In this document: piece by piece, positions 44,723 through 46,740 of the stretch
Numbering within the stretch: the first letter of the stretch is position 1
Layout of the letters: every line of letters begins with the position of its first letter
From: Hesseltinella vesiculosa
Lineage: Eukaryota > Mucoromycota > Mucoromycetes > Mucorales > Cunninghamellaceae
DNA: 64,000 bases
Direction of reading: 5' to 3'
NCBI GenBank assembly: GCA_002104935.1
Contig: MCGT01000045.1
Coordinates: forward strand, 62,001-126,000
Translations under genes and position numbers: made by a program
Notes under the pieces: model-generated
Told to the model about the DNA's origin: nothing
Seen by the model: only the letters and a program-made list of their open reading frames with translations
Database searches by the model: none

Positions 44723-44863
44723 CAATGATGCAAAAAAAAAAAAAAAAAAAAAAAAATGGGCAAGTAGGAGCTCTCTTTCCTACATCGCCATGACAACGAA
44801 AAAGTTATTCATTGACAATGCCTGTCATTTGTGCAACAAGTGCAATTTCTCTCAAAAAGCAAA
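44723..44863 (+). repeat. Left terminal inverted repeat
   Basis: CAATGATGC, an A25 run, then about 107 bp that match the complement of 46617-46740 with two mismatches and one extra base. Contains the start codon (44790) and first 25 codons of the element gene. Confidence 0.92.
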
Positions 44864-46466
44864 ACTTCGACGTCATTTGAGTGAGTCTCACCTTGTGTCC
44901 TTGCCATCTGGTGGAAAAGGCTCAGCTGCAGTAGCTCCACCTAAAACAATACTTGTTGACAACCGTGAAGACGCTGATACGATCGCGTATGCATGCCCAT
45001 CGTGCACTCTATATTTTGAATCTCTGGAGGAAACTAAGTGCCATGTGAATGACAGGCATTTGCAACAGAATCCACAGCCATCCACTTCCCCACACGACTC
45101 TCAGTCCGGGAGTCAAGACACGAGTGGCAATGGGATTTCCTCGCCTTCAAGTTCCCAAATTACAACGGACAACCTTGCCAACAGTGAATCTTATGCCAGA
45201 GAAGAACAAGCAGATTTGCTACACCCCTCTCAACTTGAGACTAATCAATTTTCACCCAATTACCCAGCTGGCCAATACTACATCAACGATTTCGACATAT
45301 GTAGTGCATTTTATCATTTCCAGCAATCCATCACCACTACAAAACACAGTTTATTAATGGAGTCAAACGTACACCATATTTTGTAAGTAAATAAGATAAA
45401 AAAAATCACTTTTTTTTTTAATTCTCTTGATACAGGGCCATGTCCTCTATTCTTTTGATCAAACCTGACCGGATGCATCCTGACATTGTACACGTGTTTG
45501 GTCGCGAAAACACCCGTCTCCTGCAGGAGCATGTACGATGTAAATTTGGTTTTGGATATTTTGGAGACCAATTTGACGTGGAGCTGCTTCAAGTTCTAAA
45601 GAATATTGTAACCAAGGTTCGATATCAGCGGATGACGCGTTTTGATGCATGTCTTGAATTATGGAATATGGCCAAGAGTGCGTCAACCGTAAACAGAAAA
45701 ATCATCAAATCTATTACCAGATTGTAAGCGTACAGATATGTAAATCAGAATTTTAGTTATTCATTCTTTTTTTTTATAATTAAGGATTGACGAATTGCCA
45801 AATGAAGACATATCCACTGAAATCAAGGAACAGGAGCTGTGTACCCGATATCTTGCTCCTGCATTCCAGCCGTTACTTGATGATCCGGAAAACAATGTGT
45901 ATTTCCGTTGGACAGGTACCACAAATGATGATGCAAAAGCGTTACCAAAAGGGTCAATTTCTACTGGTCGTCCAGATGCAATGATGTCTTGCCTCGAAGG
46001 TGTCAACTACAAAATGACAATTGGTTTTGCAGAAGTTAAACCGGCAGCAGAAAGCGACAACAATTATTCCATTGCGAAAGATCTCATTTGTCTCGGTCAG
46101 TTTTCCAAGAATGCAATCGATCACAGCAATCTAGAAGCTTGTCTCTCTATACAATCCGTTGGCCGTACCACTACTTTCTACTTGACAAAATTGATGTCTG
46201 ATGGCCTTTATTTTATGATGGAACTTGCCACACTCACTATGCCCTCGTCAATATCCAACCTTACGCAATATCTTATTCAACTTGATGATGTCGTCAAGGT
46301 GCTAACGATATTCGAGCAACATTGCAAAGTTGTGTCACATGATGAATTGGAAGTGTTTACTACGCGCAAACGACCTACCTCGTCTGATCAAAATATACAG
46401 CATGTCTTGTCACCTACTCGTGATCGAAAACGTCCTTGTTCTACTCGCCATAACTTTGTTGCATGA
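44790..46466 (+). CDS. Zinc-finger protein with predicted PD-(D/E)XK nuclease domain
   Basis: Three exons (44790-45382, 45436-45723, 45785-46466) give an intact 520-aa protein. Residues 12-35 form a C2H2-like finger (CHLCNKC ... HLSESH), residues 69-92 a regular one (CPSC, twelve residues, H, four, H). A Ser/Gln-rich linker follows. Residues 300-420 show a restriction-endonuclease-like pattern: a helix with Glu311 (EQELCTRYLAPAFQPLL), FRWTGTTND, then Pro357-Asp358 (GRPDAMM), an 18-residue spacing and Glu377-x-Lys379 (IGFAEVKPA), and a following helix with a Gln (LICLGQFSKNAID). I infer a DNA-cutting enzyme guided by zinc fingers, perhaps the element's own transposition nuclease. The tail (KRPTSS... 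DRKRP) could be a nuclear-localisation signal. I do not recognise a named family. Confidence 0.8.
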
Positions 46467-46612
46467 TTTTCTTTTCCTTTTCACCCTATTCCTTCCTATA
46501 CATACCGTAAATTCCCTTATCCCCTCGTTTTTTTCTTTATATGATAAGACACCTAAAGAAATATGAAATCAGTAATTTCTTCTTTCTCGATGAGTGCTGA
46601 TGTATGAAAGTT

Positions 46613-46690
46613 TCACTTTGCTTTTTGAGAGAAATTGCACTTGTTGCACAAATGACAGGCATTGTCAATGAATAACTTTTTCGTTGTCAT
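46613..46690 (-). other. 25-codon inverted duplicate of the element gene's N-terminus
   Basis: On the minus strand the right inverted repeat starts with the same ATG and encodes the same 25 residues as the gene at 44790 (through the CxxC half of finger 1), then meets TGA directly inside the repeat boundary. Either a by-product of the repeat or a small peptide/decoy; translation is unproven. Confidence 0.6.
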
Positions 46691-46740
46691 GGCGATGTAG
46701 GAAAGAGGGCTCCTACTCGCCCTTTTTTTTTGCATCATTG
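46617..46740 (-). repeat. Right terminal inverted repeat
   Basis: Reverse complement of the left repeat; its homopolymer run is 9 nt instead of 25. Ends with GCATCATTG on the plus strand. Confidence 0.92.

Follow-up and report, generated by a model that had tools for sequence, protein, structure and literature searches.

What kind of genetic unit is a single intact gene, encoding zinc fingers and a nuclease-like domain, that lies with two near-identical inverted repeats? The question is raised by positions 44,723 to 46,740 of a 64,000-nucleotide stretch of the Hesseltinella vesiculosa genome (contig MCGT01000045.1, positions 62,001 to 126,000; hereafter the window), where an earlier note had proposed a new type of inverted-repeat mobile element. 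Our preferred answer, to which we give about an even chance, is that the locus holds an intact gene of a large, unnamed Mucorales family combining C2H2 fingers with a PD-(D/E)XK domain, whose loci rearrange locally, and that the inverted arms are a recent duplication rather than the terminal inverted repeats (TIRs) of an active transposon.

The arms, each 115 nt long, 97% complementary and separated by 1753 nt, were the sole inverted repeat in the window (E 9e-39) to reach 40 bits with a spacing of 0.8 to 6 kb. An outer pair of 18 nt was identical when inverted, and the adjoining A run measured 25 nt on the left and 9 nt on the right (Table 1). The gene is intact, with three exons, two GT-AG introns, and a product of 520 aa. 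Near-identical repeats and an intact gene were therefore found as the earlier note had described them, but the gene is not simply enclosed, since its start codon at 44790 and about 25 codons lie inside the left arm, which thus overlaps it. Read in reverse, the right arm encodes the identical 25 residues, followed by a stop. The right arm thus repeats the gene's own 5' end in inverted orientation; we infer that it is the copy because the gene continues from the left arm only. All three arm mismatches fall within 41 non-coding nt and none within 74 coding nt, a sign that the arms are young or were homogenised recently.

Table 1. Features of the H. vesiculosa locus, in window coordinates
Feature	Position	Strand	Basis or remark
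Array of 11-bp units (ATTYGGGCACT / TCTCAGGCACT)	44553..44640	+	150 bp upstream of start codon; unit pair unique to locus in genome
Inverted copy of 11-bp unit at outer edge of left arm	44708..44724	-	94% over 17 nt; exact 13-nt match 44710-44722
Left arm, outer end (CAATGATGC + A run)	44723..44740	+	100% inverted match to 46723-46740
Left inverted arm: 5' flank, start codon, ~25 codons	44749..44863	+	inverted match to 46617-46731, 112/115 nt
Exon 1: C2H2-type fingers (residues ~12-34, ~69-90) and linker	44790..45382	+	gene model; finger matches in relatives
Exon 2: helical middle region	45436..45723	+	gene model; predicted structure of relative
Exon 3 (stop included): PD-(D/E)XK-type domain (E309, P357-D358, E377-x-K379) and basic tail	45785..46466	+	gene model, conservation, predicted structures
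Right inverted arm: duplicate of 5' end of gene, 25 residues then stop codon	46617..46731	-	arm comparison
Right arm, outer end	46723..46740	-	100% inverted match to 44723-44740
12-nt copy of 11-bp unit at outer edge of right arm	46741..46752	+	weak, E 0.54

The pairing of C2H2 fingers with a PD-(D/E)XK-type domain, as first proposed for this protein, was supported by conservation and more weakly by predicted structure. Across an alignment of 12 proteins (mean column identity 32%), E309, E377, and K379 were invariant and P357 and D358 were at least 90% conserved. E377 and K379 stayed invariant with 19 aligned sequences, while the PD stretch was absent from one member in the same genome (L012; L numbers denote family loci). 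The predicted Pro357-Asp358 and Glu377-x-Lys379 residues were thus conserved in divergent relatives. Glu311, which the earlier note had listed in the motif, gave way to E309: the latter is the invariant acidic residue in relatives and, judged by the alignment, more likely the catalytic glutamate. In the predicted structure of one relative, P0001, E309 is placed at a helix start, PD just ahead of a strand, and ExK where the following strand ends, which is the residue arrangement of the PD-(D/E)XK superfamily (acid on the first helix, PD/D and (D/E)xK on adjacent strands). A partial model resembles restriction-type nucleases, weaker support than the conservation; a second prediction (exon 3 first) had a mean pLDDT of 46.5, too poor to use.

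Profile searches agreed with the earlier statement that no known transposase is encoded, as Pfam returned no transposase family for the 520-aa protein or 12 members, and Pfam, NCBIfam, and PADLOC gave no nuclease match. Finger profiles matched weakly (E <= 0.5), zf-C2H2_4 in 5 of the 12 members (best E 0.0016) and zf-C2H2_2 in 4 (best E 4e-4); the window protein matched zf-C2H2_4 only (E 0.3, below the curated cut-off), and several members, including L011 and L014, lack fingers at the start of the visible frame. PDB sequence matches (both of two in one listing, the best 60 of 116 in another) included no nuclease of this kind and were mostly zinc-finger proteins. No match at E <= 0.001 came from BFVD, where a Pandoravirus DUF5898 protein ranked best (E 0.036, probability 0.92), and six peptide patterns found no relative in bacterial/archaeal and viral collections. 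Two hits were taken as chance: Actin_micro, the window protein's best Pfam match by E-value (0.0024, below cut-off), and Csn2 (PADLOC) for one of 12 members (E 0.003). From its motifs and predicted fold, the protein most likely binds DNA via its fingers and would cut with a C-terminal metal-dependent nuclease domain.

Three protein searches of the same genome (85 contigs, 27.05 Mb), merged at 3 kb, yielded 65 family loci including that of the window, a lower bound in which some finger-only matches may be other proteins. Paralogues were 26-50% identical to the window protein (E <= 1e-5). Many were fragmentary or stop-bearing, and long open frames were present in L006, L007, L010, L011, L012, L014, and L022. 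The family is real, expanded, and motif-conserved. Two close pairs were found, L011/L035 (84% over 95 residues) and L026/L033, the latter on different contigs with 88-96% protein identity over two parts and 80% DNA identity over 2.06 kb, intron-like gaps kept. Over 363 codons, L026/L033 gave nonsynonymous and synonymous divergences (dN and dS) of 0.038 and 0.615, a ratio of 0.062 (NG86) or 0.096 (YN00). This pair has been constrained by strong purifying selection since separation, unlike transposon copies that decay after insertion, although it belongs to another subfamily and the constraint need not apply to the window's own.

Such constraint, together with the conserved motif, would also be expected of a host gene family serving genome defence, silencing, or conflict, for which mobility is irrelevant and the inverted 5' copy would give antisense or hairpin RNA regulating the gene. 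The right arm is indeed an antisense copy of the 5' flank and start, and Mucorales have active RNA interference (PMC7377519, PMC11943222). However, the copied-5'-end arrangement was present at the window locus only, and we consider this explanation quite unlikely.

Tandem arrays (period >= 8, TRF score >= 80) occurred within the 1.5-kb flanks of 13 of the 26 best family loci, a set that leaves out L001-L005 and L008 (the window) and L021 (overlapping L013), and also at the window locus. At the 20 weaker loci, 7 arrays fell inside the 1.5-kb flanks (~60 kb) and 3 lay further than 2 kb away (81 kb), with the 1.5-2 kb zone uncounted, and the rest of the window had none. Altogether, 20 arrays in 138 kb near family loci compared with 3 in 141 kb of control (p ~2e-4), a control that is small and unmatched for gene density, such that part of the effect may reflect repeat-rich surroundings. 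In unit searches, the arrays of the window, L006, L020, and L022 were all private to their own locus (4/4 tested). L020, 47% identical to the window protein over residues 1-110, shared the window's layout, in which an 11-bp array is followed by an inverted unit, an A run, and the start codon. An inverted array copy lay clearly across the gene at 4 of 23 array-bearing loci (L007, L022, L023, and L035); that of the window was weak, and L045 had an A-rich inverted match on the same side of the gene. Array units were often close to 10-11 or 19-21 bp long, about the length of one or two turns of the helix (window, L006, L007, L009, L010, L015, L020, L023, L035, L040, and L043), in small numbers.

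Partial gene copies were found beside family members too: an inverted N-terminal piece near C3:100471-102045 (C numbers denote contigs), an inverted C-terminal piece near C11:111006-112442, and, judged by eye, an inverted pair at L042 resembling the middle of the gene. Separately, a truncated 5' copy of the L007 gene (residues 5-181, 72-88% identical) was located on another contig (G000 C33:5232-5730).

Under local rearrangement, the gene's own 5' end would recently have been duplicated locally, in inverted form, to a position beyond its 3' end, the family would spread by DNA-level copying that keeps intron-like gaps, and local fragment duplications and private tandem arrays would arise beside many family genes. 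A plausible but unproven cause is breakage by the nuclease near its own locus followed by repair; self-inflicted cuts of this kind would account for both the arrays and the partial copies. A further reading, which we think unlikely, makes each member a selfish element of a new kind with a cognate array, whose sole protein, a finger-guided PD-(D/E)XK nuclease, would recognise the private tandem units and mirrored ends. Such an element would move by cutting followed by repair in the host, and could cross from one fungal genus to another.

A true transposable element, possible though rather doubtful in our judgement, would instead comprise TIRs of ~107-145 bp with outer 11-bp units around one nuclease gene that acts in moving it. 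Such an element would have spread between Mucorales horizontally and would now be present here in one copy. Several observations favour it or weigh against local rearrangement. The arms and outer ends look like terminal repeats, as is required of a TIR transposon, making the arms candidate TIRs around an intact gene; copies of the 11-bp unit are mirrored at both outer edges, the right one weak. Inverted repeats (at least 40 bits, a match between the arms, 1.5-kb flanks, applied uniformly to all loci) also bracketed 7 of 46 other family loci: L007 by a dispersed repeat and an array, L022, L023, and L035 by local arrays, L037 by a piece of another open frame, L042 by gene-like pieces, and L040 by a repeat of no assigned kind. 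The control, the window outside the finding, gave zero and is too small for 7/46 to be called high. The L026/L033 duplicates on different contigs are not explained by local events alone, and some close relatives in other genera are broken open reading frames (ORFs), as a transposon would leave. The nuclease part of the preferred reading is also weakened by structural comparison, in which Foldseek alone gave no match at E <= 0.001.

On the other side, the arms and the whole element matched only themselves in the 27.05-Mb genome, so the many copies bounded by the same repeats that the earlier note had looked to were not found: the arms occur at the window locus only. Flanking direct repeats of 4-5 nt numbered 8 in 1368 end combinations, with a chance estimate of ~5, and no target-site duplication stood out above chance near the element ends. 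The bracketing repeats at other loci differed in sequence by locus and were unrelated to the window arms, and strong purifying selection acts on one paralogue pair. Hence, of the proposed new mobile element, the inverted arms, the gene, and the lack of a known transposase stood, whereas mobility was supported only in part. A TIR shared across the family was rejected, as the bracketing repeat is dispersed at L007, a local minisatellite at L022, and part of another open frame at L037, and no other match to the window arms was obtained; ends of CACTA/Plavaka type, suggested by CACTATT, were rejected as the repeated motif is confined to the window locus. Rfam had no match in the window or L007.

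We also regard as very unlikely that the gene is a passenger of another transposon with its transposase elsewhere. Dispersed repeats do lie nearby (an 80-bp repeat and a LINE-like fragment, detailed below), and inverted copies of a dispersed ~170-nt repeat lie on both sides of the L007 gene, but the flanking repeats examined vary by locus and the window arms match no other place. The repeat at L007 (141-310) occurs in at least 30 places at 70-78% identity, two inverted copies flanking the gene. At L037, an inverted 50-nt pair (3464-3513 / 5600-5649, 88%) surrounds a family fragment, translates to a common peptide stretch in open frames at the two places, and looks like a piece of another gene.

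Relatives in other fungi bear on horizontal spread. Three protein database searches found 11, of which six were 82-93% identical to the window protein over 94-358 residues, compared with 26-50% for its own paralogues: P0001 from Phycomyces nitens, P0004 from Apophysomyces, P0008 from Rhizopus microsporus, P0009 from R. arrhizus, P0010 from R. delemar, and P0006. The P. nitens and Apophysomyces sp. BC1034 genes bear the identifiers CLU79DRAFT_879219 and DFQ28_001885. A second P. nitens ORF (P0011) matched at 55%, and P0002 from Cunninghamella, P0003 from Halteromyces, P0005, and P0007 from R. delemar at 33-41%. Residues 1-161 lie outside the matches of all six close relatives, so this comparison covers no fingers or arms. 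Three of the six have motif changes (E377 to K in P0009, E377 to D in P0006, and P357 to L in P0010), and the R. microsporus ORF was closer to Apophysomyces (86%) than to R. arrhizus (80%). Consistent with a transposable element as these results are, a vertically inherited orthologue could stay 82-93% identical because a dN/dS ratio near 0.06-0.1 keeps proteins alike for long. We therefore withdrew horizontal transfer as proven; the pattern would fit recent spread of a mobile gene and also a constrained old gene lately decayed in Rhizopus.

Relatives named by their source were labelled hypothetical, unnamed, or uncharacterised, and a literature search of CC0, CC BY, and CC BY-SA full texts returned no title describing this finger-nuclease family. 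Among the closest known systems are PD-(D/E)XK nucleases such as the HsdR N-terminal nuclease (3h1t), DrdV (7lvv), and DUF820; here, the domain is fused to C2H2-type fingers and matched no Pfam nuclease family. The endonuclease domain of R2-type long interspersed nuclear elements (LINEs) and TnsA of Tn7 are PD-(D/E)XK nucleases, in R2 accompanied by fingers, but neither a reverse transcriptase nor a TnsB-like partner lies between the arms. The family is also reminiscent of the Crinkler-type or 'transposons to toxins' REase proteins of fungi and oomycetes, reportedly expanded eukaryotic families with an REase-like domain. Crinkler-type proteins carry Header and NTPase domains; Pfam scans (E <= 5 for the window protein, E <= 0.5 for 12 members) detected neither, and C2H2-type fingers are present instead. 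Tetris is an apparently non-autonomous foldback element with ~220-bp internal units (PMC4079207). The locus shares with it inverted ends with tandem units, and differs in having one copy here, a nuclease gene, and units of 11 bp that mostly lie outside the arms.

As an expanded, often array-adjacent nuclease-like family without a Pfam nuclease model, these genes are candidates for a part in genome conflict or defence, or for driving their own spread, in early-diverging fungi. Should the protein cut its own array, a nuclease would be tied directly to the origin of minisatellites and of local duplications. As nothing more than an ordinary gene family, these genes still close a gap in annotation.

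Other repeats surround the locus. An ORF at 43196-44524 on the minus strand is a LINE-like fragment with copies at C1:571570, C15:403853, and C30:130693 (84-91%), which, judged by its motif, contains EEP-endonuclease-like sequence of a LINE. The 80-bp dispersed repeat (44477-44556) recurs in at least 25 other places (83-90% among the matches listed). Four inverted pairs of it span 3.9-4.0 kb end to end and look like the ends of a ~4-kb TIR transposon; the pair at C3:429294-433284 adjoins a family gene fragment. To the right of the element, 46847-47012 contains a repeat found at ~10 other places with 78-94% identity.
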